A DNA stretch of 14,702 nucleotides, from the NCBI GenBank assembly GCA_016212295.1, contig JACRGO010000143.1:1-14702 (forward strand). The letters run 5' to 3'. Below are positions 113 through 14,702 of this stretch, one piece after another. Every line of letters starts with the position of its first letter. The first letter of the stretch is position 1. The DNA is from Nitrospinota bacterium (lineage in GTDB: Bacteria > Nitrospinota > Nitrospinia > JACRGO01). A model generated the notes under the pieces. The model saw only the letters and a program-made list of their open reading frames with translations. It was not told where the DNA came from and did no database searches. Position numbers and translations under genes: made by a program.

Positions 113-208
113 AGTGTTGCAATAGCCGGTAGCGCGCGGGTCTCAATAACAAAAATTATAAAGAACAAACAAGGAAAAGGAATTGTTTCGGACATTCGGG
201 AATTGTAG

Positions 209-247
209 TTTGTTATTTATTTGTAATTTGTTATTTGTCATTTGGGG
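209..247 (+). repeat. Heptanucleotide tandem repeat, tttgtta-type
   Basis: The tract reads tttgtta, a 4-base interruption (ttta), then tttgtaa, tttgtta, tttgtca and tttgggg: five units at a 7-base period with small substitutions. It fills the spacer between the insertion-sequence end and the glgP ribosome binding site. It may contain or displace promoter elements of glgP, but I see no convincing -35/-10 pair in it. Confidence 0.7.
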
Positions 248-284
248 TTTTATTTAAATAAGTAATTCATGAAAGGAAAAGCCT

Positions 285-2807
285 ATGCCAATGGAAGAAA
301 AAAGCCCGCCAGCGGGAAAGCCGGATAAGGAGAAAACCACGAAGACAAAAAATGAAAAACCGCCTCTGTCGCGCCATGAGGTGGAGTCGCTTAAGAGGTC
401 CATAGAAAAGCACATAGTCTACAGCATCGCCAAGGACGCAGTCGGGGCCAACAAGTACGATTTTTATAACGCCGTGGCTTACGCCATCCGGGACCTCCTC
501 ATAGAAAGATGGCTCAAGACCCAAAGCGCCTATTACCACATGAAGGCCAAGCGCGTCTATTATCTCTCAATGGAATTCCTCATCGGACGCACCTTCGGGA
601 ACAGTCTCATCAATATGGGACTGTACGACACCTGCCACCAGGCCCTGCACGAGCTGGGCTATGACCTGGAGGAGATCCGGGAGGTGGAGTGGGACGCGGG
701 ACTCGGCAACGGGGGCCTTGGGCGGCTGGCGGCTTGCTTCCTTGATTCCCTGGCCACCATGGAGCTTCCATCCTACGGCTACGGCATCCATTACGAATAC
801 GGAATCTTCTATCAAAGGATAGTTGACGGCGGCCAAGTGGAAATCCCGGACAACTGGCTCCGTTACGGAAACCCCTGGGAATTCGTCAGGCCGGAGCACA
901 TCTTCCCCGTGAAATTTTACGGCAGCGTGAACCAGAGGCGCGACGAGGAAGGCGTGATAAGAAGCGAGTGGGTGGACGCCGAGGAACTCATGGCAGTTGC
1001 GTGCGACACCCCGATACCGGGATACGACAACAACCACGTCATCAACATGAGGCTCTGGGCCGCCCGCGCGACGCGGGAATTCGACCTGAAGTACTTTAAC
1101 GAGGGCGACTACATCCGCGCCATGGAAAGCAAGATGGTGTCGGAGTCCATCTCCAAGGTCCTCTATCCCAGCGACCACCTGGCCGAGGGCAGGGAACTGC
1201 GGCTTAAACAGCAATACTTCCTGGTCTCGGCCACGCTCCAGGACATTATCCGGCGCTACGAGAAGCATGAAAAGGAGTTCGACAATTTTCCGGACAAGGT
1301 GGCGGTGCAGTTGAACGACACGCATCCGGCCCTGGCCATAGCCGAATTCATGCGGGTCCTTGTGGACAAGAAGTCCGTTGACTGGGACAAGGCATGGGGC
1401 ATCACGGTCAGGACCTTTGGATACACGAACCACACGCTCCTCCCGGAGGCCCTTGAAAAGTGGTCGGTTTCCCTTTTTGAGCGCGTCCTGCCGCGGCACC
1501 TGCAGATCATCTATGAGATCAACCATCGCTTTCTGCAGGAGGTGGCGAGGAGGTTCCCAGGGGACCTCGACAGACTCGGCAGGATGTCCCTTATCGAGGA
1601 GGGCGGGGAAAAGAAGGTTCGCATGGCCCACCTGGCCATAGTGGGATCACACTCGGTTAACGGCGTGTCGGAGCTGCACAGCAACCTGCTCAAGACCCAG
1701 TTATTCAAGGATTTTGACGAGCTCTTCCCTGGCAGGTTCAACAACAAGACCAACGGCATAACCCCGCGCCGGTGGCTGAAGAAGTGCAATCAGGGGCTGG
1801 CGGGCCTGATCACCAGGGAAATAGGGGACGGATGGGCCAAGGACCTGTATCAATTGAAGAGACTGGTCCCGCTGGCGGAGGACAAGGCGTTTCGCGCTGA
1901 ATGGAGGGCGGTGAAGCAGGCGAACAAGGTGCGCCTCGCGGCCTACATAAAGTGGAAAAACCGGTTGGAAGTCGATATCGACTCCATGTTCGATTCCCAG
2001 GTGAAACGCATGCATGAATACAAGCGCCAGCTCCTCAACCTCTTGCATGCAGTGACGATGTACAACAGGATCAGGAAAAATCCGGGAGGGGATTTCACCC
2101 CAAGGGCGGTAATCTTCGGCGGAAAGGCCGCCCCGGCGTACTGGATCGCCAAGCTTATCATCAAGCTCATCAATTCAGTGGCCGACGTCGTGAACAACAA
2201 CAAGGACGTGGGGGGCCGCCTTAAGGTGGTCTTCCTCCACAATTACAAGGTGTCGCTGGCCGAGAAGATCATGCCCGCCACCGACCTTTCGGAACAGATT
2301 TCGACCGCCGGCAAGGAGGCGTCCGGCACAGGGAACATGAAATTCGCCCTGAACGGGGCGCTGACCATCGGGACCCTGGACGGGGCCAATATCGAGATCA
2401 TGGAGGAAGTTGGAAAGGAAAACATCTTCATCTTCGGACTGAACGCGGTGGAGGTGGCTGATCTGAAGGGCAGGGGCTACAATCCCTGGGATTATTACAA
2501 CAGGAACGCGGAACTGAAGGAGGTCCTGGACATGATAGGCGGCGGTTATTTCTCCCCCTTTCAGCACGACCTGTTCAGGCCCATCGTGGCGTCCCTCCTG
2601 GAGCACGGCGACCCGTACCTGCTTCTGGCCGATTACCAGGCTTATGTGGAATGCCAGGACCGCGTGTCAGCGGCCTTTAAGGACCATGAAAGCTGGACGC
2701 GCATGTCCATTCTGAACACCGCGAACATGGGAAAATTTTCCAGCGACAACACAATAAGGGAATACGCCGAGAAGATTTGGGGGGTCCACCCGGTGCATGT
2801 GGAGTAA
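285..2807 (+). CDS. glgP: Glycogen/starch (alpha-glucan) phosphorylase
   Basis: This 840-residue protein is a full-length glycogen phosphorylase. The family is cytosolic, uses pyridoxal phosphate, and releases glucose-1-phosphate from the non-reducing ends of alpha-1,4-glucans. Visible hallmarks are VYYLSMEFLIGR (residues 91-102), the glycine-rich GNGGLGRLA (141-149), the ISKVLYPSD segment, and the cofactor-binding EASGTGNMKFALNGA block, where K686 should form the Schiff base. Length is within the family's usual 800-850. The first 30 residues are a lysine-rich extension ahead of the conserved core. The ATG at 285 has an AAAGGA Shine-Dalgarno at suitable distance; an ATG at 291 is possible. 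No other glycogen gene is adjacent, so it appears to be a single-gene unit, with an insertion sequence upstream and a repeat cluster downstream. Preference for glycogen over maltodextrin cannot be read from the sequence. Confidence 0.97.
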   Translation: MPMEEKSPPAGKPDKEKTTKTKNEKPPLSRHEVESLKRSIEKHIVYSIAKDAVGANKYDFYNAVAYAIRDLLIERWLKTQSAYYHMKAKRVYYLSMEFLIGRTFGNSLINMGLYDTCHQALHELGYDLEEIREVEWDAGLGNGGLGRLAACFLDSLATMELPSYGYGIHYEYGIFYQRIVDGGQVEIPDNWLRYGNPWEFVRPEHIFPVKFYGSVNQRRDEEGVIRSEWVDAEELMAVACDTPIPGYDNNHVINMRLWAARATREFDLKYFNEGDYIRAMESKMVSESISKVLYPSDHLAEGRELRLKQQYFLVSATLQDIIRRYEKHEKEFDNFPDKVAVQLNDTHPALAIAEFMRVLVDKKSVDWDKAWGITVRTFGYTNHTLLPEALEKWSVSLFERVLPRHLQIIYEINHRFLQEVARRFPGDLDRLGRMSLIEEGGEKKVRMAHLAIVGSHSVNGVSELHSNLLKTQLFKDFDELFPGRFNNKTNGITPRRWLKKCNQGLAGLITREIGDGWAKDLYQLKRLVPLAEDKAFRAEWRAVKQANKVRLAAYIKWKNRLEVDIDSMFDSQVKRMHEYKRQLLNLLHAVTMYNRIRKNPGGDFTPRAVIFGGKAAPAYWIAKLIIKLINSVADVVNNNKDVGGRLKVVFLHNYKVSLAEKIMPATDLSEQISTAGKEASGTGNMKFALNGALTIGTLDGANIEIMEEVGKENIFIFGLNAVEVADLKGRGYNPWDYYNRNAELKEVLDMIGGGYFSPFQHDLFRPIVASLLEHGDPYLLLADYQAYVECQDRVSAAFKDHESWTRMSILNTANMGKFSSDNTIREYAEKIWGVHPVHVE

Positions 2808-2869
2808 TGGTTCAGTTATTTTTCCAGAACAGCGGACTATTGCGGCCATGCGGAATAAAACGTTTTTCT

Positions 2870-2895
2870 CGCTCCCAGGGTCCTCCCTGGGAGCG
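2870..2895. repeat. Strong hairpin in the glgP downstream region
   Basis: CGCTCCCAGGG and CCCTGGGAGCG form a perfect 11-bp stem around a TCCT loop. There is no T-run on either exit side, so a classical intrinsic terminator is unlikely. The 'cccaggg…ccctggg' style, repeated in variant form at 3030-3048, looks like a dispersed palindromic (REP-like) repeat. It could still stabilise the glgP mRNA end. Confidence 0.65.
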
Positions 2896-2940
2896 CCAAT
2901 TATAGAGGCTAATTGTACGAGTCAGAGCCTCGTGGTCCGG

Positions 2941-3177
2941 CATTCCCAGGCAGGGCCTCACTGCCATTAAGTTAAGAAAATTTTTGAAAAATATTCTGAA
3001 AAAAAGCCCGAAGGGCTGACTTAATATAGCCCAGGGCAACGCCCTGGGATCAGGAACATAAAGCATTCCAGCCCTGAAAGGGCGATTTAAAAGGATACGC
3101 CATCTCTAAATCAGCCTTTCAGGCTTGAAAAAGGCAGTCCCCTTAACTTAATGGCAGTGAGGCAAAACCTGGGAACG
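2941..3177. repeat. Inverted-repeat element with multiple internal hairpins (MITE-like)
   Basis: Positions 2955-2976 and 3142-3163 are a perfect 22-bp inverted repeat containing CTGCCATTAAGTTAAG. With imperfect flanks the arms extend to 2941-2976 and 3142-3177, matching at 31 of 36 bases. The roughly 165 bp between them holds short hairpins: 3005-3017 (agccc/gggct), 3030-3048 (cccagggc/gccctggg, 3-base loop) and 3071-3083 (gccct/agggc). No protein with visible family features is encoded. The outer pair ttcccagg/cctgggaa looks like an older hairpin whose loop received the inner element. This is most simply a non-autonomous or REP-like repeat. Confidence 0.7.
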
Positions 3178-3278
3178 AAAGACATGAAGGCTATGTCGCT
3201 ACTATTATGAGGCTGTTAATAAACGAACTATTGCCATGCGGAACAAGACGTTAAAAGCCTTCCTTCTTTCGCCACCGC

Positions 3279-3466
3279 TCATTTTTTTAATGCTTGCTGG
3301 ATGCGGCGGGGAGCAATCCATTTACCCAATGCTTGGCGAGTTACTCCGAATATTTGGGCAACCTCAACCTGAGTTTTTCCTCCCATAACAGCCTTGACAG
3401 CTTTAATTCGTATAGCTTCCTGGGTTTTAGGAGAAAGGGAGCGGCCATGTCGCGCTAAGCATTCAT
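3279..3466 (-). pseudogene. Remnant of an IS630-type transposase (N-terminal helix-turn-helix only)
   Basis: The minus strand encodes ARHGRSLSPKTQEAIR, then KAVKAVMGGKTQVEVAQIFG and VTRQALGKWI. This is the characteristic N-terminal helix-turn-helix of IS630/Tc1-type transposases. The frame ends in a stop at 3279 shortly after the domain; the neighbouring frame continues with GGIQQALKK-like residues, suggesting a frameshift within 3300-3315. The DDE catalytic domain is absent. At the other end the natural ATG (minus strand near 3464-3472) is out of frame with the body, suggesting a second single-base lesion. The fragment reaches the start codon of the next plus-strand gene, so it now forms that gene's upstream region. 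Confidence 0.8.
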
Positions 3467-3470
3467 CTTC

Positions 3471-4952
3471 ATGGAAAAAATCCACAAATTTTCTTTTCCC
3501 CGCGGCCTGATTTTTCCCGCCGTCGCGGTCCTGGCGTCCTGGCTGGTTTATCTCCCCGCCGCTGGAGTTTTTTTCTGCTGGGACGATTTGGATCTTCTCC
3601 ATGACTCAGCGGCCATTGCGGATTTCCCCTCCTTGATGTCGTGGCTTGTTGTGCCTAACAACGAGCACTGCCTGCCCTTATTGAAGCTCCTGGATTTTTT
3701 GCTTTTCAAGCTGTTTGGCCCGGACCCCTTGCCTTTCCATGTAGTTATTGCCTTGGTCCACGCTGCCACTATCTTCGGATTATACACGTTGTGCAACCTT
3801 CTTTTCCAAATACCCGTCCTTTCCAGTTGCGCGTGTCTGCTCTTCGGGATGTCGGCCATATACGCTGAATGCGTTGTCTGGATTTCAGGATCGCACATCC
3901 TCTTCTGCCTGTGCTTCATGGCGTGGACGCTTAACTCCATTTATTTCGGCATGGCCGCGAAGTCGAGGGCCTGGAAGACCGCCGGATTTTTTTTCGCGCT
4001 GGGCGCGGTATGGTCCTTTTCCATCGGCCTGACCCTTTTTCTTTGGATGCCGTGGTTTTACCTTTTAGTTAAAAAGAACATGGGGCCTGGCGCAGGAGAT
4101 AATGTTTCCGTTTCCGCGGTCATCCCCCATCTTTCCGGCGCGGCCCTGGCCGCCTTGCTTTATGTATACAACAGGATGGCGGTATTCAGTCCTTCCCATT
4201 ACAAATACATGGGAGGCCATAACGCTCTGGACGCCATGAACGCCGCCTCCGGGGCTGTTTATACTTACAGGGCTTTTTTTGAAAGGCTCCTTCCAGGCAT
4301 ATCCTTTGCCCCTGTTTCAGTCCTGCTGATTCTGGCTGCCGGGACGGGTTTATATTATTACCGCCGGGAGTTATCAATGGAAGCCATCCTCTTTTTTATT
4401 GCGTGGATATTCATATTCTTCATGGTCCCTTTCACCTTCAGGGCCGCCTGGGGGGACGACATCTTGTTCTGGGGGCGGTATTATGTGTTCCCCGCCTTTG
4501 GACTTTCAGTCCTTTACGCGGCTGTGGCCAGGGAATGGTTTGAAAATAAGCTCCGGCCGCCTTCGCGTTCAGTAACGGGCCTGCTTGTAGTTGTACTGCT
4601 CCTCTTTTCCGTCCACGGAATAACCGCCCGTTCCCTTGTAGTCGAAAGGCTGCCTGACACCGCCGCGTTGGAAGCTGTGTCCAGGGAAATGCGCGGGCTG
4701 TTTGAGAATTTCTTCAGGGAGAGGGAGGGCCTTGCGGGGAAACTCCAGGTCGCGGACAAAGGGGTGAAAGTAAACGTGTATCCAACCATTAAGGGAATCA
4801 GCTTTTACGCGGCCTTTTTGCTGCCTGATAAAATCAATAAACGGTTGAGTTGGGGACCTGATTCGTCACCGGAGTTTCTTTCCTATTTGGAGTCCAACTC
4901 AGGGAAGTACCCTATTTTAGCTGATTTTTGGAAGGCAGGGAGCAGGGAGTAG
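3471..4952 (+). CDS. Polytopic membrane protein, GT-C glycosyltransferase-like
   Basis: This 493-residue protein has a very hydrophobic N-terminal 380 residues with roughly nine or more predicted membrane segments, the first at about residues 12-35, followed by a soluble C-terminal domain of about 110 residues. Just after the first segment lies WDDLDLL (residues 37-43), with NEHCLPLLKLLD at 64-75. An acidic pair in the first extracytoplasmic loop is the usual catalytic signature of GT-C enzymes, which use lipid-linked sugar donors. RYYVFPAFGLSVL (336-348) resembles late-helix motifs of such proteins. Substrate is unknown. ATG 3471 is the only start available, since an in-frame stop lies at 3456, but it lacks a Shine-Dalgarno and directly abuts a transposase remnant. 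The last codons and the stop lie inside a heptamer array. A general membrane protein of unknown function is the alternative. Confidence 0.7.
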   Translation: MEKIHKFSFPRGLIFPAVAVLASWLVYLPAAGVFFCWDDLDLLHDSAAIADFPSLMSWLVVPNNEHCLPLLKLLDFLLFKLFGPDPLPFHVVIALVHAATIFGLYTLCNLLFQIPVLSSCACLLFGMSAIYAECVVWISGSHILFCLCFMAWTLNSIYFGMAAKSRAWKTAGFFFALGAVWSFSIGLTLFLWMPWFYLLVKKNMGPGAGDNVSVSAVIPHLSGAALAALLYVYNRMAVFSPSHYKYMGGHNALDAMNAASGAVYTYRAFFERLLPGISFAPVSVLLILAAGTGLYYYRRELSMEAILFFIAWIFIFFMVPFTFRAAWGDDILFWGRYYVFPAFGLSVLYAAVAREWFENKLRPPSRSVTGLLVVVLLLFSVHGITARSLVVERLPDTAALEAVSREMRGLFENFFREREGLAGKLQVADKGVKVNVYPTIKGISFYAAFLLPDKINKRLSWGPDSSPEFLSYLESNSGKYPILADFWKAGSRE

Positions 4953-5010
4953 CGGATAGCGATTAGCGGATAGGGATTAGCGTATAGGGATTAGCGATTA
5001 GCGAATAGGG
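4934..5010 (+). repeat. Heptanucleotide tandem repeat, attagcg-type, 11 units
   Basis: The tract divides without gaps into eleven 7-base units: ggcaggg, agcaggg, agtagcg, gatagcg, attagcg, gataggg, attagcg, tataggg, attagcg, attagcg, aataggg. The first units overlap the end of the membrane-protein gene and supply its final residues and its TAG stop. The length of 77 bases is exactly 11 periods. Confidence 0.85.
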
Positions 5011-5019
5011 CGGAACTAA

Positions 5020-5103
5020 TTTCAGATTCGCGATTTCAGATTTCAGATTTGTTGCAGGCTTTTTCTTTTTATGTCTTCCAATCTGAAATCTGAAATCTGA
5101 AAT
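5020..5103. repeat. Inverted heptamer repeat between convergent genes; possible bidirectional terminator
   Basis: The left arm is tttcaga, ttcgcga, tttcaga, tttcaga, tttgttg (5020-5054). The right arm is atctgaa three times without change (5081-5101). The arms are reverse complements and can form a stem of about 17 bp (5033-5050 with 5080-5103). On the plus strand the stem is followed by atatttttt. Lying between the stops of two convergent genes (4952 and 5122), it is well placed to end transcription from the plus strand at least, although the AT-rich stem is weak for a terminator. Confidence 0.65.
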
Positions 5104-5121
5104 ATTTTTTGATAACGTACC

Positions 5122-8100
5122 TTACCCGAACAGAAACTCAATATCCTCCCGGCCTATCTTTTTGAACAAAGACCCTTCTCCTGAAATTATGGACCCCACC
5201 AATTCCTTCTTTTTTTCCTGCAAGGCCATGATCTTCTCCTCCACTGTGTCCTTGGTTATCAACCGGTAGGTGAAGACCTTTTGGGTCTGGCCGATGCGGT
5301 GCGCCCGGTCCGTGGCCTGGGCCTCAACCGCCGGGTTCCACCAGGGATCGAAGATGAACACATAACTAGCTGCGGTGAGGTTAAGTCCATGCCCGCCTGC
5401 CCTGAGGCTTATGAGAAAGAGCTTGCAATCCTTGTTCTCCTGGAATTTTTTGACCTCTTCCTTTCTCTTGATGGTGCGGCCGTCCAGATAGGCGTAAGGG
5501 ATTTTTTTCCCCTTTACAGCCGGTTTGATCAGGTCCAGCATGGTGACAAACTGCGAAAAGACAAGGGCCTTATGCCCTTCCTCCACCGCCTCGCCCACCA
5601 TCTCCATCAAGGTCTCCAGCTTGGCGGACTTGGCCTTGGAGGCGGGCTTCACCAGCGCCGGATGGCAGGCGGTCTGCCTGAGCCTTAGCAGCCCTTCCAG
5701 TATCGTCATCCGGCTTTTATTGATCCCCCTGGAATCCACGTGGCCCAGGACTTTTATTCTGTAGAAATCACGTATCTCGTTATAAAGTTTTCGTTGGGGC
5801 GGCGACATCTCGCAATGGATGATCTGCTCTGACTTCGGGGGGAGCTCGGTCAGGACGTCCTCTTTTTTCCGCCGGAGTATGAATGGATGGACAAGGCGCC
5901 TCAGTTTCTCAAGGTCTTCGGCGTCCACCTCCTTCTTGCCGCCGTAGCGGGAGTCGAAATATTCCTTCCGCCAGAGCAGACCAGGATTCAGGAAGGATTT
6001 AAGGGACCATAATTCCCCAAGATGGTTTTCCACCGGCGTCCCGCTGAGGGCGAGCCGGTGCGCGGCCTTCAGGGCGCGGACGGCCTTGGCGGTGATTGTC
6101 TCCGTGTTCTTCATGGCCTGGGCCTCGTCCAGGGCCGCGTAAAAAAAATCCATCTCCCTGAACGCGTCGATGTCCCGCCGGAGGACCCCGTAGGTGGTGA
6201 GAATCACCTTGCCTGCCAAAGGCCCGTCCAATAGCCCCTTACGGTTGAGTCCGGTATAGTTCACGACGTCCAGCGAGGGGGCGAATTTGTTTATCTCATC
6301 CATCCAGTTAAAGATCAGGGAGGTGGGCGCCACCACCAGGGAAGGCTTTTCCTGCTCCATCACGCCCGTGTGCAGGAACAGGGCCAGGACCTGCACGGTC
6401 TTTCCCAGCCCCATGTCGTCCGCCAGTATCCCTCCGAAACCAAAGTCCCTTAAAAAGGCCAGCCATGACAGGCCGGCCTTTTGGTAGTCCCTGAGCGTTC
6501 CCTTGAACCGCGCGGGCGGGTTGATCTCCTCAATCCCTGAAAAACCGGCCAGCTTCTTGAAAAAGTCCTTTGAGAGAACGTCGAACTTCGCCGGAAAATA
6601 TTCGTCATCGGAGAGGCCCTGGATGGCGCCTGCGTGGGCCTTGTGGAAGCGCAATGTCCCGTCGCCTTTTTGTTTTTGTCCGAGTTCCAGCAGCCACTGG
6701 TTTTTCTTCAGCCACTCTTCCGGGAGCAGGCCGCTTTCTCCGTTGGAAAGACGCACGAACCTTTCGCCTTTTTGCAAGGCGTCCAGGAGGTCAAGGACGG
6801 AAACGCTGGCGTCGCCGAAGGAGGCATTGCCTTCGAGGTCGAACCAGTCGATCCCGGAAGAGACGGAAAGCTTGAAGCTGGACATGGACTGGATTTTTTT
6901 TCTGTCCTGGGCCAGGACTTCAAACCCTTTTTCCATCAGCAGGCGGATGTTTTCCATCAGCCCTTCCCGCGCCAAAATCCACTCCTGGCCGGAAGGGTCA
7001 AAGGCAACGCCCGGGAGGGAATTAACCGCCTCCACCGCCTGTTTTTCCAGTTCCGGATTTCTGAGAAACCGGCGTCTTTTCTTGAAATCAGTTATGGCCT
7101 CTCCGGCTTGGAAGGCATTCGCCGACATTTTATCTTCGTCCTGGCCAGGGGAATATTCAAACTCCAGCGAGCCTTTTATTTTCTGGCCCAGGAACTCCAA
7201 TTGGAAAACCGGTAGAGGGGCTTGGACAGGAATAGTTTCCCTCCAGAAATTATCCGGCCATGAGAAATCAGGGATGTTTCCTCCAGCCTCGCCCATGGAT
7301 TCGTAAAAAAGGTCCACTTCCCCGGCGGGAATGGCGACCTGCTCTTTTTTTTCCCGGAAGAAGGTAATCCAGGCAAAAGCAGACTGTCCCTCCGCCTTGC
7401 TGAATGTCCCTTTGTGAAAAAAGAACATTGGGTCTCCGCTGAAAATGACGCTTGGTTCCTCTATAGGGATGGACTCTTCTCCGCGTTTAAAAACAGGCCG
7501 CATGGCCAGGCTCCCGGCCTCCTCCTGGATATTTATAACGAACCGCCATGGACCTTCCTTGTCTATTTTCAAAGGCCATTGTTCATCATGGTTCCGCCCT
7601 GATACCGTTGTGTGGCCATACTCCTCAAGGAGGGGAAGAAGGGCGCCGGCGGTCTGGAGAGGAATACGGTGCTTCATTTCGCCGTAATAGGAATACGTAT
7701 TCCGGGCCAGCAGCAAGGAAAAAATCTGCTGTTCCAGGCCGGTCCCGTGCTCCAGAAATTTTCTGGCGGCGTAAGAGCTTTCCTGCCTGCCCGGGGAGCC
7801 GTCTTTTTTCCGGTACCATAGCTCCACTTCCAGTACTAGCTTTTGGGCTTGCTGGGACTCCTGGGTCTTGATGGCAAAGGAGCAGATGGGACAGATGGGA
7901 AGGGGAGGCGCCGCGTCCTGAAAAAGAGTTTGGGAACGAACGACCTTGCTGATTAAGTCGCGCCAGGAGGGCTGCGGGAGTCGCGGAAGCGGACTTTTTA
8001 TTTTGGGCGCTTCCTTCTTTTTTTTTGGCGGAAATAAGGCGTTAAAAGCAAAATAATCCTCGGCCTCGTCAAAATCCTCGACCCCGCTATAACTTATATC

Positions 8101-8397
8101 GGCCTTGTCTATGTTGACTCCAGGCCGGTAGCCGATGCGGTCGAGTTCCAGAAGGACGGCCCAAAGATGCTTGCACGGTTCCAGAAACCCGTCCATGTAC
8201 GGGCAATCGCAATGCATCTCCACCTCCTCGGGTGATAAAAAGATGGAGACCTCGTATTCCTCGGAGCCGAAAACGGACGCCTCCACGCTGTCGGGTCCAG
8301 TTTTTTCAATCCTTGCCCTCCGCCCATTGAAATAGTTGCGGCCCCGGTTTTGGATGGTTCCGCTGAAATGGCTTTTAAATCTTTCCGCTAAGGTCAT
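5122..8397 (-). CDS. SWIM zinc-finger SNF2-family DNA helicase/ATPase
   Basis: This 1091-residue protein begins with a SWIM zinc-binding motif (C63-x-C65 … C75-x-H77) and ends with a complete SNF2/Rad54-type ATPase. The Walker A is DDMGLGKT (660-667, K666), the DEAQ box is at 757-760, SGTPVEN is motif III, and FSQF is near 948. The second lobe has LRAGGHGLNLTAASYVFIFD and, further on, QATDRAHRIGQ (1027-1037) with the arginine finger. Such bacterial SNF2 enzymes are DNA-dependent translocases of mostly unknown role. Residues 100-620 match no domain I can name and include a lone CPIC (169-172). ATG 8397 is the natural start because the SWIM region follows at normal distance, although no clear Shine-Dalgarno precedes it. 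The 139-bp gap to the upstream chemoreceptor gene holds nothing I can identify and suggests separate transcription. Confidence 0.93.
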   Translation of the reverse strand: MTLAERFKSHFSGTIQNRGRNYFNGRRARIEKTGPDSVEASVFGSEEYEVSIFLSPEEVEMHCDCPYMDGFLEPCKHLWAVLLELDRIGYRPGVNIDKADISYSGVEDFDEAEDYFAFNALFPPKKKKEAPKIKSPLPRLPQPSWRDLISKVVRSQTLFQDAAPPLPICPICSFAIKTQESQQAQKLVLEVELWYRKKDGSPGRQESSYAARKFLEHGTGLEQQIFSLLLARNTYSYYGEMKHRIPLQTAGALLPLLEEYGHTTVSGRNHDEQWPLKIDKEGPWRFVINIQEEAGSLAMRPVFKRGEESIPIEEPSVIFSGDPMFFFHKGTFSKAEGQSAFAWITFFREKKEQVAIPAGEVDLFYESMGEAGGNIPDFSWPDNFWRETIPVQAPLPVFQLEFLGQKIKGSLEFEYSPGQDEDKMSANAFQAGEAITDFKKRRRFLRNPELEKQAVEAVNSLPGVAFDPSGQEWILAREGLMENIRLLMEKGFEVLAQDRKKIQSMSSFKLSVSSGIDWFDLEGNASFGDASVSVLDLLDALQKGERFVRLSNGESGLLPEEWLKKNQWLLELGQKQKGDGTLRFHKAHAGAIQGLSDDEYFPAKFDVLSKDFFKKLAGFSGIEEINPPARFKGTLRDYQKAGLSWLAFLRDFGFGGILADDMGLGKTVQVLALFLHTGVMEQEKPSLVVAPTSLIFNWMDEINKFAPSLDVVNYTGLNRKGLLDGPLAGKVILTTYGVLRRDIDAFREMDFFYAALDEAQAMKNTETITAKAVRALKAAHRLALSGTPVENHLGELWSLKSFLNPGLLWRKEYFDSRYGGKKEVDAEDLEKLRRLVHPFILRRKKEDVLTELPPKSEQIIHCEMSPPQRKLYNEIRDFYRIKVLGHVDSRGINKSRMTILEGLLRLRQTACHPALVKPASKAKSAKLETLMEMVGEAVEEGHKALVFSQFVTMLDLIKPAVKGKKIPYAYLDGRTIKRKEEVKKFQENKDCKLFLISLRAGGHGLNLTAASYVFIFDPWWNPAVEAQATDRAHRIGQTQKVFTYRLITKDTVEEKIMALQEKKKELVGSIISGEGSLFKKIGREDIEFLFG

Positions 8398-8536
8398 TGC
8401 TATACAAGGATATAAAAAATAATTTAGCAGGGGTTAGACAGGATATTTTGTTCTAAGCTTGCATGACAGAAAGGAAATCCGTAGAAAGTTGGAAATCAGG
8501 CGGGCGGCGGGTGATAATTTGGCGGACATTAAGGCG

Positions 8537-9925
8537 CTACTTGAACTTCAAGCTGTCCAGGTCTCCGAACTCGTCTTCCGTGTCTTCCGGCCTAAAGTCC
8601 TCCGAGGGCCCATCAAAATTATCATTCCGCAGGGTCGGCAATTTTATTTCCTCCTCCTGTTCTTCCTCCTCATCTGAGCATTTCTCTTCCCTAAGGGAAA
8701 ACGCGGAAACAACATCTTTCAGGTCGTCCGCCAAAACGGAGAGATCAAGGGCAAGGGACGCCAGTTGATTCATGGAAGCGGATTGCTCCTCCGTGGCCGC
8801 GGCGGTCTCTTCAGTGGCCGCGGCGTTGTCCTGGGCCAAGTCAGCCACTTCCTCTATGGCTTGCACCATTTTCTCGGTTTCCCTGGCCTGGACTCCAGTA
8901 ACGGAGGATATATCCTGGACCTCTTTCGCGGTCGCCATGACCCCTTCCGATATCCTGCCCAGGGAGCCTACGATGGTTTGCAAGACCCCGCGGCCGTCCT
9001 TGAGTCCGCTGGAAACGGCCCCGAAGGAATCCAGAATGGTGTGGTGCTCCTCCTGTATATCTTCCACTATGGCCTTGATTTTGTTCGCGAATTCCCTTGT
9101 AGTTTCGGCGAGCTTCCGGACCTCGTCCGCCACCACCGCGAACCCGGCGCCGTATTCGCCCGCCCTGGCTGCTTCAATGGCGGCATTCAGGGCAAGGAGA
9201 TTGGTCTGCTGGGAAATTTCAGTAATCATGTCCACGGTTTTGTTGATTTCAGCGGTCTTTTTCACAAAGCGTTTTACCATGCCCAGGGACTCGTCGATTT
9301 TGGAAAAAACCTGTTCCATTTCACCAAGGGCCGCTTCAGTCGCCTTGCCGGCCTCCTGGGCCTTTGTGGCCATCCCTTCCGCCGTCCTGGCCGCGAGTTC
9401 CACTTTTTCATTTATCTTGCCGGTCCCATCGGCCAACTGTTTGGTGATTTCAGAGGCCCCTTCAACCAATTCCGTCTGTTTTTCCGCCCCTTGGGAAATA
9501 TTTTCCACGGATGAGGATATCTCCAGTATGGTGGATTTCATCTCCTGGGCCATGCTGGAAAAACTTGAGGCTGAATCCGAAATCTGGTTAGAGGTGGTCT
9601 TCATCTTGCCGGCCAGATTTCTCAAATTGAGGACCATCTGATTAAAGGCGTCCACCAATGCCCCGATTTCGTCCCTGGACTTGATGTCCACGTCCTCGGT
9701 CAAGTCTCCGCTGCTTATGACCTTGCTGAAGGCCACGAGTTTTTGTACGTCCCTGGTCAAGCTGTTGGAGAAAAAATAGGCGAGGGCCATGCCGATCCCG
9801 ATGCAGGAAACCACAGTGAATATCTGGTATTGCAAATTGTCCAGAATGAAGCTTTTGGCGAAAAGACCGATGACCAGATTTGAAAAAATGACCACCAGGT
9901 ATCCAAGAATAATTTTTTTCTTCAT
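8537..9925 (-). CDS. Methyl-accepting chemotaxis protein lacking a periplasmic ligand domain
   Basis: This 462-residue protein has two transmembrane segments (about 5-22 and 34-53) separated by only about 11 residues, a HAMP domain (about 54-106), and a long coiled-coil signalling domain. The hairpin tip is canonical: [20 protein letters not shown] (238-257), then [13 protein letters not shown], where CheA and CheW bind. Glutamate/glutamine/alanine-rich flanks such as [20 protein letters not shown] are typical methylation-helix sequence. The C-terminus is a very acidic tail (419-460) with no NWETF-like CheR/CheB tether. With no external domain, the signal is probably sensed in the membrane or cytoplasm, or delivered by a partner protein. 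The start at 9925 is preferred because TM1 follows at once and AAGGG lies upstream; an in-frame ATG at 10066 would overlap the ferritin-like gene and add an unrelated basic stretch. It is 10 bp downstream of that gene and likely co-transcribed. Confidence 0.95.
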
Positions 9926-9935
9926 TTTATGGCCC

Positions 9936-10151
9936 TTAATTGTCCTTGTAAATTCCTCTATCCAGCTCTTCCTCAAGAATGCGCTGGTGTTCGATCTCCT
10001 GGCGGACCAGTTCCTTGAACATCTTCCTTGCGCCCGGGTCCTCGGCCATTTGGGCCGCCTTTTCATAAAAGGCCTGGGATTGCTTTTCGTGCTCGATGGC
10101 CATGCGGATGGCGTCAGCGGGATGTATTAAATCGGGGTAAATCAGGCTCAT
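9936..10151 (-). CDS. Half-length ferritin-like (rubrerythrin-type) protein
   Basis: The product is 71 residues, predicted as two amphipathic helices (about 12-36 and 39-63). Residues 13-60 resemble the first helix pair of rubrerythrin and other ferritin-like diiron proteins: a glutamate in [15 protein letters not shown] (E20 or E22) and an ExxH in QEIEHQ (E52, H55). A full ferritin-like four-helix bundle needs two such hairpins, so this protein would have to dimerise to form a diiron site, as encapsulated ferritins do. The start is secure: AAAGGAG lies about 7 bases before the ATG. It ends 10 bp before the chemoreceptor start, implying one transcript. Iron binding or oxygen/peroxide chemistry is inference; a structural role or a stray fragment of rubrerythrin is possible. 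Confidence 0.8.
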
Positions 10152-10187
10152 GGGCTTCTCCTTTACTATTTAAGCAATTTTATTAAA

Positions 10188-10350
10188 GTTCACGGTGTCA
10201 GGGACCAGGGGCCAGTTTGTTTCTCCATGAATCTTCTCAAACCATCAACTATTCCACCAATTTCAGTGGCTTGGCCGCCAAATGGACAGATATTGCCGGA
10301 AATCGATATCGTTTGGTTTTGCTGCCCCCTGGTCCCTGACACCCGTGAAC
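10188..10350. repeat. Inverted-repeat mini-element with cagggac-type arms
   Basis: The left arm 10188-10211 (gttcacggtgtcagggacca…) and right arm 10326-10350 are reverse complements except for one inserted G, giving arms of about 24 bp around 114 bp of unique sequence. The left arm contains 7-base units cagggac and caggggc, so it belongs with the other heptamer families here. The minus strand across the element is open for 50 codons from a GTG at 10342 to a TGA at 10190, but without a ribosome binding site. It occupies most of the 244-bp spacer between arnT-like and ferritin-like genes and could act as a terminator stem in transcripts. Confidence 0.75.
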
Positions 10351-10395
10351 TATAGTATAACAATTATTTTAATCAGAGCCAATAAAATGTTTTTT

Positions 10396-12054
10396 TTAAG
10401 AACCATACAAAAGCATATATGAGGGGGTTTCAGATAGTATGGACAGAGGATGTCCAGCCAGCCCCCTAACCTCCTCCAGATGCCTGCGTTTTATCACAAG
10501 AAAAATCCTTTTGCCGGGCTCAAAAAAGTTTTTTAAGCTGTTTTCATTTTCAATGACGTAGCGTCCGGCCTCTTCCTGGTCTTCCTCGAAAAGGATCTCC
10601 CTTGGTTGGGACACGTTGATGATCCTTTCCCCGGTATAAAAGGGGAGGCTATTGAGCATGCATTTATAGGCAATGATTTTGTCTCCCGGCTTGAAATGCT
10701 CCTTGATTTTTTTAACGAACACGGGGGTTGGGCTTAGCAAAGGCTCCACTGAGGAAATGGACCGCGCCACCACGAGACAGCACAAAAGGAAACCCAGCGT
10801 TGCAATGGGAAAAAAAAACGCGGCCCGGTTTGTCTTTATGGAAAACCAGGCGGCCGCCATACCCGCGCAGCAAAAAAAGAGCAGGAAGATTGAGGCATTT
10901 CTAAGAGGGGAGAGGTCATATTGAGCCCAACCTGAGAAACGCGGGGTATATATAAAAAAAGCGGTCAGGAAAACCCCAATGAGTAAAAATCCCGCCAGAT
11001 AAAGAGAGAGGGAGAGCCGGATTGTGGGCCTATTGTCTTCAGGCTCCATTATAAGGTCTCTCCACATCTTTCCAGTCAACAAGGCGGTGGCCGGGAAAAT
11101 GGGCAATAAATAGTGCACGAGTTTGGAACCGGACAGGGAAAAAAAGACCAACGGCCCGATAATCCAGACCGCCAGAAACCGGTTGTTCCCTTTTTCCGGC
11201 GTTCCATTAAAGGAAAAATAATCCTTGATCAAAGACGGCAAAAGAGGGGTCCAGGGCAGGAGGCCGATAAGGAAAACCGGGATAAAATAAAATATCGAAC
11301 CTGGCCTGCCATGTACCTTGGAAAAAAAGCGGTCGATAGTGTGGAAGAAGACAAAGTACTGGAGGAGGCCCGGATTTTTCCAGCAAAGCCAGATAAACCA
11401 TGGTCCGCAAATAGCGGCAGCCACCAACAGCCCTCTGCCCCACCCCAGCCTGAAAAACTCCCTCCATTTTCCGGCGATAACTAAATCCAGCCCGATTATC
11501 ATGGCGGGAAGGAGAACTCCAACAGGGCCTTTGGTCAGCATGGCCCCGGAAAGGGAAAGAAAAAAAAGCCACCAATTTAATTTTTTCGCAAGCCCCTTGC
11601 AATAAAAGAGAAGGGAAAGAGTAATAAAAAGGGCCAGGAGCATATCCGTCACCAGGTAACGGGAAATAAAAAAATATTCCATGGTGGATAAGAGCGCCAG
11701 CCCGGAAAGGAATCCCGCCAAGGTGTCGAAGAGAAATTTTCCTAAAAAAAAGGTGGCCATGATTCCGCCCAAGCCGAAGAGGGCCTGTGGAAAACGCGCC
11801 GCGAATTCATTTTCCCCGAAGAGCTTAAAGGAGGCCGCGGTGGCCCAGTAGATGAGGGGAGGCTTATGGAAGTGTTTTATGAAGTTGTAGCGCGGCGTGG
11901 TCCAGTCCCCGGACCGGGCCATTTCCCAGGAGATTTCAGCGTACCGCGCCTCGCTGGTTTCCATGAGGCCATGGCTTCCAAGAAAGGAAAAGAGAAAAAG
12001 AGAGGAGACCAGGAGCAACGCCGGCCAGTCTCCGAATTTTTTGAGTGTTTGCAT
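10396..12054 (-). CDS. ArnT/PMT-type (GT39-like) membrane glycosyltransferase
   Basis: This 552-residue polytopic protein matches the ArnT/PMT family in length and in its N-terminal signature: METSEARYAEISWEMARSGD (31-50), followed by P54, then KHFHKPPLIYWATAASFKLF (60-79). In this family the acidic residues of the first periplasmic loop (here E32/E35) bind metal and catalyse transfer from a polyprenyl-phosphate sugar donor. ArnT itself adds aminoarabinose to lipid A; relatives glycosylate other lipids or proteins, and none of the arn pathway genes is nearby, so the substrate is unknown. About a dozen hydrophobic segments run to about residue 430, followed by a soluble C-terminal domain of about 120 residues. 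The upstream leader holds a heptamer repeat and only a weak Shine-Dalgarno (GAGTAAG), and the gene is separated from rdgC by a repeat element, so it probably has its own promoter. Confidence 0.9.
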   Translation of the reverse strand: MQTLKKFGDWPALLLVSSLFLFSFLGSHGLMETSEARYAEISWEMARSGDWTTPRYNFIKHFHKPPLIYWATAASFKLFGENEFAARFPQALFGLGGIMATFFLGKFLFDTLAGFLSGLALLSTMEYFFISRYLVTDMLLALFITLSLLFYCKGLAKKLNWWLFFLSLSGAMLTKGPVGVLLPAMIIGLDLVIAGKWREFFRLGWGRGLLVAAAICGPWFIWLCWKNPGLLQYFVFFHTIDRFFSKVHGRPGSIFYFIPVFLIGLLPWTPLLPSLIKDYFSFNGTPEKGNNRFLAVWIIGPLVFFSLSGSKLVHYLLPIFPATALLTGKMWRDLIMEPEDNRPTIRLSLSLYLAGFLLIGVFLTAFFIYTPRFSGWAQYDLSPLRNASIFLLFFCCAGMAAAWFSIKTNRAAFFFPIATLGFLLCCLVVARSISSVEPLLSPTPVFVKKIKEHFKPGDKIIAYKCMLNSLPFYTGERIINVSQPREILFEEDQEEAGRYVIENENSLKNFFEPGKRIFLVIKRRHLEEVRGLAGHPLSILSETPSYMLLYGS

Positions 12055-12084
12055 TTTAGATACTTACTCGCTCATGCGGTTCCT

Positions 12085-12105
12085 TGTTCGATATTCAATA
12101 TTCGA
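12085..12105 (+). repeat. Short heptamer repeat (tattcga-type) in the leader of the ArnT-like gene
   Basis: Three consecutive 7-base units read tgttcga, tattcaa and tattcga. They also make the near-palindrome ttcgatatt-c-aatattcgaa (12087-12106). It lies 31-51 bases upstream of the ArnT-like start, on the untranslated side, so it could be either an operator-like palindrome or another member of the heptamer class. Confidence 0.5.
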
Positions 12106-12147
12106 ATGTTGCATGAACGGGGGTTTTAGTTCAGGCACTATATATTA

Positions 12148-12292
12148 AACCACGAAGGGCGCGAAGATCACGAAGATCAATTAAAGGTTTTTCAGCCTCT
12201 CGATTTCTTCGAGAGAAAACGCATTTGAAAATTTTGAGGCCCTCTTGAAGTCAAAAATATTTTTCTTCGTGCCCTTAGCGCTCTTCGTGGTT
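12148..12292. repeat. Inverted-repeat mini-element with cacgaag-type arms
   Basis: The arms 12148-12175 (aaccacgaagggcgcgaaga…) and 12265-12292 are reverse complements at 24 of 28 positions. Unlike the other families, the unit here is 9 bases (accacgaag, ggcgcgaag, atcacgaag). The 89 bp in the middle read on the minus strand as KNIFDFKRASKFSNAFSLEE, continuing to a stop at 12181, which looks like the tail of a protein but has no start. The element fills the spacer between rdgC and the ArnT-like gene, ending 5 bp from the rdgC stop. A read-through hairpin could help end rdgC transcription. Confidence 0.7.
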
Positions 12293-12297
12293 ATTCA

Positions 12298-13464
12298 TTA
12301 ATTTTCCGAAGCCGCCCAATTTTCCATTTGCTTCTTCTTTTTTGTCCATTCATTGCCAAGCCGGTCCTGAAGGAAGGAAGAAAAAAGGCTGTCGAACTTT
12401 TGTAACCCTTGTTCCAAAAGAGACATGCGCTCAAAAAAAATCGCCTCCCTTTCGCTTACTTCATCAACCTCCGCGTCCTTTTCCAGTTTGACAGGGGGAC
12501 ACCTGAAAGACGCGAAGTCAAAGGTCTCGCCCTTCAAAATCAATTTCCATGTCTGCTCGTCCTTTTCCATGTATATGGCGGCCTCGGTGATCTTTTTATC
12601 TTCCCGGAGGGCCATGCGCGCCTCGCTGAACCTGGACTGTGGGCCGGCGATGGTTATTTTCCCTCCTTCCAGCTTGTCATCCTTAAGCGCCATGCGGTTA
12701 TCCACGTATGAAATAAAAGGCGTCCCTTTCTCCAGCAGGCCCGGTCTGTTGATTTCGTATCTTGAGCCGGAATTTTTTGTCCTGTACATGAGCCAGAACA
12801 GGAAATCCCAACCGATCCATTTATTGTGCTCAATCAGGGAAACCACGTCGTCAGCCGTGGTCTGGTTGGACTTTCGCAGGGCGGGGATCAAGTCCTTGGA
12901 GAGGACCGATTCCGCCCTGGAATAGGGATGGACCAATATCAAGCGCATCCCATGAAAGGTTTTATGGAAATGGTCCTCGAAAATTTCAATAATTTTTTTT
13001 CTCAGGCTCGCGAAAAGCAGGGTCCCTGTCTTGGTGTCCCAAACCGCGTCGTAAGTGGAAGGGACCGGCGGGACCTTGGAGAAAAGGGCCATTTTGACCC
13101 TTTCCAGCAGCTCTTCTTTTTCGCTTTTAGGGACCCATTTAAAGCCGGGGTTTGCCTCCAGGAATTCTTCCTCTGCTTTAGCCCTTCCGGCCTTCACCAG
13201 GGCCGAAGGCAATTTGCGTTGGTCCAGGCGCAGGGTCAGGGCCAGGTACCGGCCGCGGAGAAAGGAATGAGGGTCCTCGAATTCCGTTTCCTGATGTTCG
13301 TGGACATGGACCCAACCCCAGGAAGACTCATCCAAGGTGTTGTCGATGGAACGAAAGGCATGCTTGGCCAGAAGTTCCGACGCCCATTGAAAAAGGTCGC
13401 CTGGAGGTAGCCCCCCCTCGACCCGGTACTGGCGCATGCTGACGGTGTTTGAAATAATGCCCAT
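12298..13464 (-). CDS. rdgC: RdgC-family recombination-associated protein
   Basis: This 388-residue protein resembles the RdgC family, which in E. coli forms a ring around double-stranded DNA and restrains RecA activity. The order of features fits: an N-terminal β-rich half with WGWVHVHE (49-56), the LALTLRLDQRKLPSALVKAG segment, a lysine/glutamate-rich helical stretch with KSEKEELLERVKMALFSKVP, then the YDAVWDTKTGTLLFASLRKK strand-turn region and EIFEDHF. It is longer than E. coli RdgC (about 300 residues), with a charged C-terminal extension, so it belongs to a divergent branch and an altered role is possible. The start is supported by AAAGGAG about 9 bases before the ATG. The gene is divergent from cysE, and its upstream region carries the direct repeats at 13486-13507. 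It stands alone, with no recombination partner beside it. Confidence 0.82.
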   Translation of the reverse strand: MGIISNTVSMRQYRVEGGLPPGDLFQWASELLAKHAFRSIDNTLDESSWGWVHVHEHQETEFEDPHSFLRGRYLALTLRLDQRKLPSALVKAGRAKAEEEFLEANPGFKWVPKSEKEELLERVKMALFSKVPPVPSTYDAVWDTKTGTLLFASLRKKIIEIFEDHFHKTFHGMRLILVHPYSRAESVLSKDLIPALRKSNQTTADDVVSLIEHNKWIGWDFLFWLMYRTKNSGSRYEINRPGLLEKGTPFISYVDNRMALKDDKLEGGKITIAGPQSRFSEARMALREDKKITEAAIYMEKDEQTWKLILKGETFDFASFRCPPVKLEKDAEVDEVSEREAIFFERMSLLEQGLQKFDSLFSSFLQDRLGNEWTKKKKQMENWAASEN

Positions 13465-13485
13465 TAATTTTTCTCCTTTATATTA

Positions 13486-13507
13486 TTACGTTCAGAAATT
13501 TACGTTC
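13486..13507 (-). promoter_or_regulatory. Pair of GAACGTAA direct repeats upstream of rdgC
   Basis: On the minus strand, GAACGTAA occurs twice (13507-13500 and 13493-13486), 14 bases apart start to start, between about 20 and 45 bases before the rdgC ATG. The outer copy overlaps the palindrome GTTCGAAC (13504-13511). Repeats of this kind in a promoter-proximal position could bind a regulator. No known operator is matched, and a coincidence is possible. Confidence 0.3.
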
Positions 13508-13595
13508 GAACCAAGCTGTATAAAAAAGTTTACGGGATTTAGAGTCGAAATCGCAAAAAATGGCGCTTAATAAAATCTCAAATTACAATTAGTGT

Positions 13596-13714
13596 AACTG
13601 TTCAGGGTTCAGGGTTTAAAAACCGCCAAACACGGCAATGTAAGGGCAAGGTTTTTTTTAGGACGCTCCACTACAGGGTTTTCTATAACCTGGAACCCTG
13701 AACCGTGAACGGTT
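13596..13714. repeat. Mini-element with ggttcag heptamer inverted arms (left copy)
   Basis: The arms 13596-13616 and 13694-13714 are reverse complements at 19 of 21 bases. The left arm is built from gttcagg, gttcagg, gttt. The 77-bp interior contains acggcaatg, a T-run, ctccac and cagggttttctataacc, all of which recur in the same order at 14575-14702. It sits in the divergent rdgC-cysE spacer. Apart from this element, the promoter at 13807-13835 and the rdgC upstream repeats, I see nothing else in the 378 bp between the two starts. Confidence 0.8.
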
Positions 13715-13806
13715 GCCAATTACTGAATGTCCAAAACAATTCCATTTCTTTTTACTGTCATATTACAGATGCAGTAAGAGGCTAGCCTTGGATAAAGTTT
13801 TTAATC

Positions 13807-13835
13807 TTGACAGAAATTGTCGGGAATTGTATAGT
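13807..13835 (+). promoter_or_regulatory. Near-consensus sigma-70 promoter of cysE
   Basis: TTGACA (13807-13812, a perfect -35), a 17-base spacer and TATAGT (13830-13835, one mismatch to TATAAT) form a very good promoter. Transcription should start about 5-8 bases later, near 13841-13843, at the cysE ATG. GACA-N5-TGTC overlaps the -35 (13809-13821), and TGTCAA at 13835-13840 is the reverse complement of the -35, so a repressor site is possible but unproven. Confidence 0.7.
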
Positions 13836-13842
13836 GTCAAAT

Positions 13843-14511
13843 ATGCTTAACCAAATAAGAAAAGACATTAAAATGGTGCTGGAACGTGACCCTGCATCAA
13901 GGAACCCACTGGAAATTATTCTATGCTATGCGGGCTTTCACGCCCTGATCTTCCATAGAATAGCGCACTGGCTTTGGAAGCATGAAATGTTCCTTATAGG
14001 CCGTGTGCTTTCCCATATCAGCCGATTCCTGACCGGCATTGAAATTCATCCAGGGGCCAAGATAGGGGACGGCTTTTTCATCGACCACGGGATGGGCGTG
14101 GTGATAGGAGAGACCGCCGAGGTGGGCGATAATTGCATGATTTATCACGGCGTGACATTGGGGGGATTCAGCATGAAAAAGGAAAAAAGGCATCCCACCA
14201 TAGGAAACAATGTGATAATAGGCGCGGGCGCGAAGGTATTGGGTCCAATCAAGGTAGGGGACAACAGCAAGATAGGGTCCGGCTCCGTGGTTTTGGGAGA
14301 CGTCCCGCGCAACAGCACGGTGATCGGAGTGCCGGGAAGGATTATATACCGCCGGGACCCCGCCGCCGGGAGCGCCGGCGAGGAGTACAATTGGCAATCA
14401 TCGACGGACCCGGTGGCGCAGGCCATCAAGTGTCTGCTTGAAAAAATTCCCCAGATCGAAAAGGAAATCCAGGAACTCCGCGTGAAGCTGAAAAATATGG
14501 AAGAGAAATAA
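13843..14511 (+). CDS. cysE: Serine O-acetyltransferase (short form)
   Basis: This 222-residue enzyme acetylates L-serine from acetyl-CoA, the first step of cysteine synthesis in the cytoplasm. Left-handed β-helix hexapeptides span about residues 66-165. Key motifs are [12 protein letters not shown] (64-75), [11 protein letters not shown] (81-91), YHGVTLGG (101-108), KRHPTIG (115-121) and [13 protein letters not shown] (127-139). H82 and H117 correspond to catalytic and substrate-binding histidines of E. coli CysE; the catalytic acid is E67 here, as in other short forms. The C-terminus is a charged helix ending NMEEK, not the isoleucine that docks into cysteine synthase. The ATG at 13843 aligns with family N-termini; an upstream TTG at 13807 is really the promoter -35. 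No Shine-Dalgarno precedes the ATG, consistent with a leaderless mRNA. It is divergent from rdgC, with no cysK visible in the window. Confidence 0.95.
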
Positions 14512-14513
14512 AC

Positions 14514-14543
14514 AACCGTTTTCGGTTAACGGTTTACAGTTAA
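14514..14543 (+). repeat. Heptamer repeat (cggttaa-type) just after cysE
   Basis: Three units cggttaa, cggttta, cagttaa (14523-14543) follow the cysE stop by 11 bases. The preceding aaccg (14514-14518) pairs with cggtt (14523-14527) around TTTT to make a small hairpin. No T-run follows, so it is not a convincing terminator. Confidence 0.6.
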
Positions 14544-14566
14544 AAGCCTATGGAATTAATTTAGCC

Positions 14567-14702
14567 GTTCACGGGTTCAGGGTTCAAGGTTGAAAAAGGG
14601 CGTGAATCACGGCAATATTGCAAGGGATTTTTAGGGCATTCCACCTTGGTTATAGTGCCGCTCAACAAAAATCTGCGTGGGTACAGGGTTTTATAAAACC
14701 CG
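14567..14702. repeat. Mini-element with ggttcag heptamer arm (right copy, cut by window end)
   Basis: The left arm is gttcacg, ggttcag, ggttcaa, ggttgaa (14567-14594). From 14575 onward the sequence aligns with the element at 13600 in the same orientation, sharing acggcaat, the T-run, tccac and acagggtttt-ataa. This copy carries about 36 extra bases (about 14645-14680) that the left copy lacks. Its right arm should lie just past 14702. The minus strand is open for 46 codons from the window edge to a stop at 14561. Confidence 0.75.
14686..14701. repeat. Perfect 16-bp palindrome
   Basis: GGGTTTTATAAAACCC is exactly its own reverse complement. A decayed equivalent (cagggttttctataacctgg) occurs at the matching place in the left copy near 13674-13693, so this is a structural part of the repeat element rather than an isolated operator. 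Confidence 0.7.

Follow-up and report, generated by a model that had tools for sequence, protein, structure and literature searches.

The spacers of contig C101, a 14,702-nucleotide stretch (the window) of a metagenome-assembled genome (MAG; 3.74 Mb in 237 contigs, labelled G000) of an uncultured Nitrospinota bacterium, carry tandem arrays of several units with a common period of 7 bp. Our results make it probable that these arrays are mainly the arms of short palindromic, non-autonomous elements, which have spread through the spacers of the genus and whose arms grow and shrink in 7-bp steps. The best characterised family, with GTTCAGG as the unit, consists of miniature inverted-repeat transposable elements (MITEs) whose terminal inverted repeats (TIRs) are of the type known from the insertion sequence (IS) family IS66.

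Enrichment of period 7 and inverted pairing

Period 7 is enriched genome-wide in G000, in line with the initial annotation of the window. About 860 kb was read as stretches, including the window (sampled loci carry the label L); 20 of the earliest stretches were taken from contigs picked for a match to TTCAGGG, and statistics are also given for contigs without that choice. In the unselected contigs exact 8-mer matches at lag 7 occurred at 2.5 per kb of intergenic DNA, and other lags gave 0.0–0.8 per kb except for the multiples 14 (2.7) and 21 (1.2). A strict census of the intergenic DNA in the ~860 kb found 79 arrays of period 7, as compared to 0–11 for each of the periods 4–6, 8–13 and 15, and 0–1 in simulated DNA. 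The arrays fall into eight loose unit families, which agrees with the earlier view that many unrelated units share the period. Extrapolation gives about 560 arrays in the genome, and with 7-bp tandem arrays over-represented in intergenic DNA they conform to the class of heptameric simple sequence repeats (SSRs) and short tandemly repeated repetitive (STRR) sequences. They are present in 22–27% of spacers and make up about 3% of the sampled intergenic DNA (2,055 of 68,402 bp), so that to call the spacers "filled" with repeats was too strong. Relatives from the same class have almost none (0.02 per kb at lag 7 in 20 samples of 4.5–20 kb each) and 50 kb of E. coli contained zero arrays, and the enrichment is thus not a universal property.

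The 2.3 kb of window spacers held 8 local arrays of period 7, with a mean of 0.12 and a maximum of 2 in 300 runs simulated by a first-order Markov model; other periods gave 0–1 arrays each, apart from 5 at period 14, a multiple of 7. Every array listed by the initial annotation was found near its coordinates. Over the intervals originally claimed, lag-7 identity was 23/32 (209–247), 49/70 (4934–5010), 43/75 (5020–5101), 9/10 (10199–10215), 11/14 (12085–12105), 10/10 (13600–13616), 11/14 (14523–14543) and 15/21 (14567–14594). The word "strict" for this period went too far, since several arrays have mixed units or alternate at 14 bp, and the two shortest (10199–10215 and 12085–12105) are weak evidence when taken singly.

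Neighbouring arrays of the same unit are mostly inverted. Of 90 pairs separated by less than 250 bp, 35 shared a unit in inverted orientation and one shared it in direct orientation, compared with 3.9 and 3.8 after shuffling, and in a sister genome of the same genus (G001) 7 of 23 pairs were inverted versus 1.2 in shuffled data. The orientation of the left arm was constant within each family. The arrays therefore form hairpin arms, and since they are the inverted-repeat arms of dispersed MITE-like elements, much of their abundance comes from spread. The initial annotation was right that the arrays do not stem from the spread of a single repeat, but it missed that several dispersed elements had spread.

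Intergenic hairpins could also be kept by selection at the RNA level, for example as transcription terminators or stabilisers of mRNA ends, and the arrays are indeed intergenic, fold strongly and lie at a median distance of 87 bp from gene 3' ends. However, their density between convergent genes (1.2 per kb) is not the highest: it exceeds that between divergent genes (0.84) but falls short of that between co-directional genes (1.5). Furthermore, they occupy a minority of spacers, and in the small number of orthologous spacers that were compared the sister differs from G000; divergence (about 76–82% protein identity for the best-conserved pairs) prevents spacer alignment between the two. We regard selection as RNA hairpins as very unlikely, and a terminator role was rejected as there is no bias towards convergent genes.

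The GTTCAGG family and its IS66-type ends

Elements of the GTTCAGG family have the ends GTAACCGTTCACGG..CCGTGAACGGTTAC, GTTCAGG arms and 8-bp target duplications; they are about 120–250 bp long and contain no gene. Duplications with 7–8 of the 8 bases matching were found for 10 of 26 candidates in G000 and for none of 2,548 displaced controls. The TIR was matched 78 times in G000 and 61 times in G001. The TIRs begin with GTAAGCG or a close variant, with GTAACCGTTCACGG in G000 and exact GTAAGCG variants (GTAAGCGTTCACGG) in G001. GTAAGCG ends together with 8-bp repeats are stated marks of IS66 elements (PMC11946415). Two arrays of the window, 13600–13616 and 14567–14594, belong to this one family, in the following features:

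13573–13770, no strand: fragment of a family A element, split by the MITE at 13594–13716 (joined flanks match intact family A copies elsewhere)
13586–13593, plus strand: left target-site duplication, CAATTAGT
13594–13716, no strand: complete 123-bp IS66-type MITE with GTTCAGG heptad arms and ends GTAACTGTTCA..TGAACGGTTGC (TIR and duplication; DNA folding z = −5.3)
13717–13724, plus strand: right target-site duplication, CAATTACT, 7 of 8 bases equal to the left one
14561–14702, no strand: IS66-type MITE truncated at the contig end, with a GTTCAGG/GTTCAAG heptad arm (sequence and relatives)

The TIRs of the complete MITE are GTAACTG..CGGTTGC. Its empty site is preserved elsewhere, as the window junction is spanned by 3 copies (e.g. 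L174, 89% over 53 bp), and the analogous junction at L111 gives a clearer case with 30 uninterrupted family A copies. Both target duplications and empty sites were thus found for this family. The second MITE shares a subfamily with L188 1047–1220, which has a perfect 8-bp duplication, and with the start of contig C9.

Such elements would be moved in trans, presumably by an IS66-type transposase. One transposase of this type was detected in each of G000 and G001, and these loci were rejected as the source of the MITEs since matching ends are absent from the flanks fetched; the assembly breaks at repeats. As no autonomous copy with GTAACCG-type ends was found, the mover is one that we infer. Contigs C9, C57 and C164 (near base 125) and the window at 14561–14702 break inside or next to this same MITE family, so that longer copies, and with them any autonomous element, are probably split in the assembly or missing from it. 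Plasmid searches with two elements gave zero matches.

The GTTCAGG unit adjoins the TIR inside both ends and resembles the TIR segment GTTCACG, a likeness that points to growth of the array out of the TIR; the heptad may have arisen as tandem copies of that segment. A repeat of a TIR segment directly inside the TIR at both ends would also be expected if the heptads were binding sites, with a transposase or host factor binding every 7 bp, selection keeping the spacing and the sequence following the binder as it diverges. However, some elements (L112 365–593, L116 10537–10753 and L192 1971–2222) have this TIR and 8-bp duplications that are perfect or nearly so, yet no heptads at all, and octads take the place of heptads in the sister, so that a 7-bp pitch is unnecessary for movement. 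Heptads are also found in elements with unrelated ends, and we consider binding-site arrays an unlikely origin.

Movement as sequences of the repetitive extragenic palindromic (REP) type, by a REP-associated tyrosine transposase (RAYT, Y1 type), could be envisaged as well, as the genome has two Y1 transposases and one of them, on contig C211, has many hairpins and a pair of ACGAGTA heptad arrays on its flanks. The hairpins at this RAYT-like gene (L175 ~13900–15600) have the form GCTCG..GGATTTGCAATCC and lie beside the ACGAGTA heptad hairpin. Those with the GGATTTGCAATCC core form a separate family, for the most part local to this contig, where 10 of the 21 sampled copies lie, and the gene is flanked mainly by these and not by the main heptad families. 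Moreover, REP/IS200-type movement leaves no target duplication, unlike the GTTCAGG family with its 8 bp. A role of the RAYT as driver is thus unsupported and, in our judgement, quite improbable.

Arm growth, unit swapping and other arrays

The arms differ in length by whole units. Inside arrays, gaps between similar dispersed copies were 7 bp long in 76 cases versus 19 at 6 bp and 8 at 8 bp; outside arrays the corresponding numbers were 27, 48 and 37. Whole-unit differences are seen directly in near-identical copies (L113, L116, L117 and L137), and the 7-bp peak corresponds to the whole-unit change in copy number that marks STRR sequences, here compared between dispersed copies. The arms would change by whole 7-bp (and 14-bp) units, the simplest mechanism being replication slippage or unequal exchange, which the hairpins would favour, and the length-altered elements would then disperse.

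Different units are found inside constant frames. IS66-type ends enclose GTTCAGG heptads, TCAGGNN heptads or, in G001, the octads TGGAGTAA; in some elements they enclose no array. In a second, modular repeat the ends CGCCCTTCGGGCGGACTTTAAAG and ATGGAAATTCCTATAC are constant and the middle is AACATCG, GGTCATT or a hairpin without heptads. Sites of the modular repeat include L113 2431–2620, L116 8480–8830, L117 1400–1574, L118 7432–7700 and L137 100–332, among others; its ends read GAACTTA[AT]CGCCCTTCGGGCGG and ATGGAAATTCCTATAC, the middle hairpins are swapped, no obvious target duplication was seen, and at a guess the ends look IS200/IS605-like. The aligned AAATNNC, GGTCATT and AACATCG copies have neither GTAACCG ends nor clear duplications, and these families are not filed as IS66 MITEs; nor is ATTTCAG, whose copies lie outside the alignment. 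Probably, all four are separate palindromes of the same build, some of them serving as interchangeable middles in larger modular repeats.

The sister G001 has octads and period-9/10 arrays besides heptads, and at L255 and L259 period-8 arms (TGGAGTAA/TTACTCCA) lie inside the same IS66-type ends. Since octads can occupy this MITE frame too, period 7 reflects a strong bias and not a fixed ruler. The proposal that units change while the period stays therefore holds broadly between elements, but the period itself is not absolutely constant, and period-9/10 palindromes also occur in G000.

Several observations weigh against palindromic elements with 7-bp growth as a full explanation. A detectable inverted partner was found for 74 of 251 arrays, and 4935–5008 in the window has none. 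The excess of 7-bp gaps is partly expected given the arrays, as alignments keep their phase. Target duplications were seen for one family only and the boundaries of the others are tentative, and no autonomous IS66 element with matching ends was located. The order of unit variants was mirrored between arms only weakly above shuffled data (592 vs. 566, sd 13), which suggests that the coupling is loose and the arms mostly grow separately; mirrored order as proof of arm-to-arm copying was rejected on account of this weak signal. Finally, slippage alone does not explain 7 over 6 or 8. A general slippage bias may be the reason for 7, and dispersed elements account in part for the abundance of the arrays, not for the preference for 7 across unrelated units.

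As GTTCAGG, TCAGGNN and the octad TGGAGTAA share the IS66-type frame, and AACATCG and GGTCATT another, the palindromic elements of one lineage could repeatedly re-invent their arm unit under a strong 7-bp bias. This would imply a sequence-independent process with a step of about 7 bases, common to other heptad-rich phyla; we hold it doubtful, with some weight in its favour. Similar heptads, some of them inverted (L052), are present in loci of other phyla that had been retrieved on account of an unrelated gene. The exact word AATTGACAATTGAC was found in 4 of 8 genomes from other phyla, a set chosen partly for heptads, and a 21-base version of it in 11 of 146 genomes of a Cyanobacteriota sample. 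The word AATTGAC occurs in G000 and in cyanobacterial genomes, and a search of that phylum found both AATTGAC and TTAACTG heptads, so that the assumption of one dominating unit in cyanobacteria is not general. In one cyanobacterial genome (G195) the reversed-pattern control gave 245 matches to a three-unit TTAACTG heptad word; as this word is itself a real heptad, it is not a clean control in cyanobacteria.

One period common to many unrelated units, and similar heptads in other phyla, some of them with the same word AATTGAC, would also be compatible with a dedicated enzyme (a reverse transcriptase, telomerase-like or other polymerase) that adds 7-base steps and needs no mobile element. For such a polymerase or a 7-bp copying element, as raised in the initial annotation, no evidence was found: the sole reverse transcriptase found in the genome matches LtrA proteins of group II introns and is unsupported as a driver, the sister carries octads, and neither inverted pairing nor target duplications are predicted. 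We judge this explanation extremely unlikely.

The other arrays of the window are:

141–255, minus strand: fragment of family A, a dispersed palindrome with AAATNNC heptads (26 BLAST matches in other sampled spacers; aligned with L112, L121, L114 and L120)
4935–5008, plus strand: mixed-unit heptad array of GCAGGGA, TAGCGGA and TTAGCGA with 14-bp alternation (Tandem Repeats Finder (TRF) and array list; folding z = 0.30)
5019–5104, no strand: inverted pair of ATTTCAG arrays, a heptad-armed hairpin (DNA folding z = −4.9; 0 of 200 shuffles as stable)
10183–10355, no strand: degenerate palindrome with IS66-like ends ..AGTTCACGG / CCGTGAACTAT.. (sequence; up to 4 matches in other spacers)
12083–12105, no strand: short TTCGATA/TTCAATA array, nearly self-complementary (sequence; lag-7 identity 11/14; folding z = −2.1)
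14514–14543, plus strand: CGGTTAA/CGGTTTA/CAGTTAA heptads between the cysE-like gene and the following MITE (TRF; lag-7 identity 11/14)

The first fragment has its heptad arm at 203–244 (209–247 in the initial annotation) and lacks about half of the second arm. Array 4935–5008 runs in one orientation and forms no hairpin; it begins within the 3' end of the open reading frame (ORF) 3471–4952 (overlap 4935–4952) and supplies its stop codon. The interval 5020–5101 is two opposite arrays, 5025–5050 and 5080–5103, around a 30-bp loop. Arms of the palindrome at 10183–10355 are TCAGGNN/CAGGGAC heptads, in a subfamily with the ends GTAATAGTTCACGGG..CCCGTGAACTATTAC shared with L114 4035–4211 and L175 8508–8680, and 12083–12105 is probably a degenerate relative of the TTCGATG family. 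A palindrome at 12151–12297 has period-9 arms (ACCACGAAGGGCGCGAAGATCACGAAG .. CTTCGTGCCCTTAGCGCTCTTCGTGGTT), with similar CACGAAGGACACGAAG repeats elsewhere in the genome; palindrome arms are thus not all of period 7. In the Rfam search the arrays were covered by no family; a match to Acido-Lenti-1 RNA (RF01687) above the gathering score lies at 3004–3048 on the minus strand, in a spacer with several other hairpins. The genes of the window are ordinary (glycogen phosphorylase, SNF2 helicase, chemotaxis receptor, PMT-type glycosyltransferase, RdgC-like protein and CysE-like acetyltransferase).

Comparison with known repeats

Over-represented heptamers in bacteria are already known; what is new here is the number of units and their anatomy as MITE arms. 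Among the longer tandem repeats of many bacterial genomes, heptamers are reported to be the most abundant (Mrazek et al. 2007, as cited in PMC4692102 and PMC4679880), and for the cause of this excess these citing papers pass on slippage related to the polymerase footprint as a guess only. Like the cyanobacterial STRR sequences and the TAACTGA repeats of Beggiatoaceae, the present arrays are many-copy intergenic 7-bp tandem arrays with several units per group. Apart from one inverted copy, the repeats of the TAACTGA sets are direct (PMC4679880), whereas in G000 neighbouring arrays of the same unit are as a rule paired in inverted orientation within dispersed elements. Xanthomonas GGGNATC and Nostoc GGGGAYT are over-represented intergenic heptamers, for which a polymerase-related slippage cause was proposed and, in Xanthomonas, inverted pairs were noted (PMC4692102); each report studies one G-rich unit, in contrast to the at least eight units of varied composition found here.

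REP sequences and their paired forms (REPINs), palindromes associated with RAYTs, are likewise short dispersed intergenic hairpins, but the elements described here have heptad arms, an 8-bp duplication in the characterised family and no tie to the hairpins of the RAYT gene itself. The closest likeness, limited to the GTTCAGG and TCAGGNN arrays, is to MITEs of the IS66 family, with GTAACCG/GTAAGCG TIRs and 8-bp target duplications (end and repeat length according to PMC11946415), a length of 120–250 bp and no gene; unlike these, the arms carry 7-bp arrays (8-bp in the sister) and no autonomous partner with the same ends was located. Many unrelated heptads of G000 stand in interpretable contexts, in elements whose ends are of a known kind and for which target duplications and empty sites are seen. 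In this context, how arrays arise, how they grow and how they disperse can be told apart, and the 7-bp step becomes testable. It also serves as a warning that "intergenic heptamer repeats" described in other genomes may be unrecognised MITE arms.

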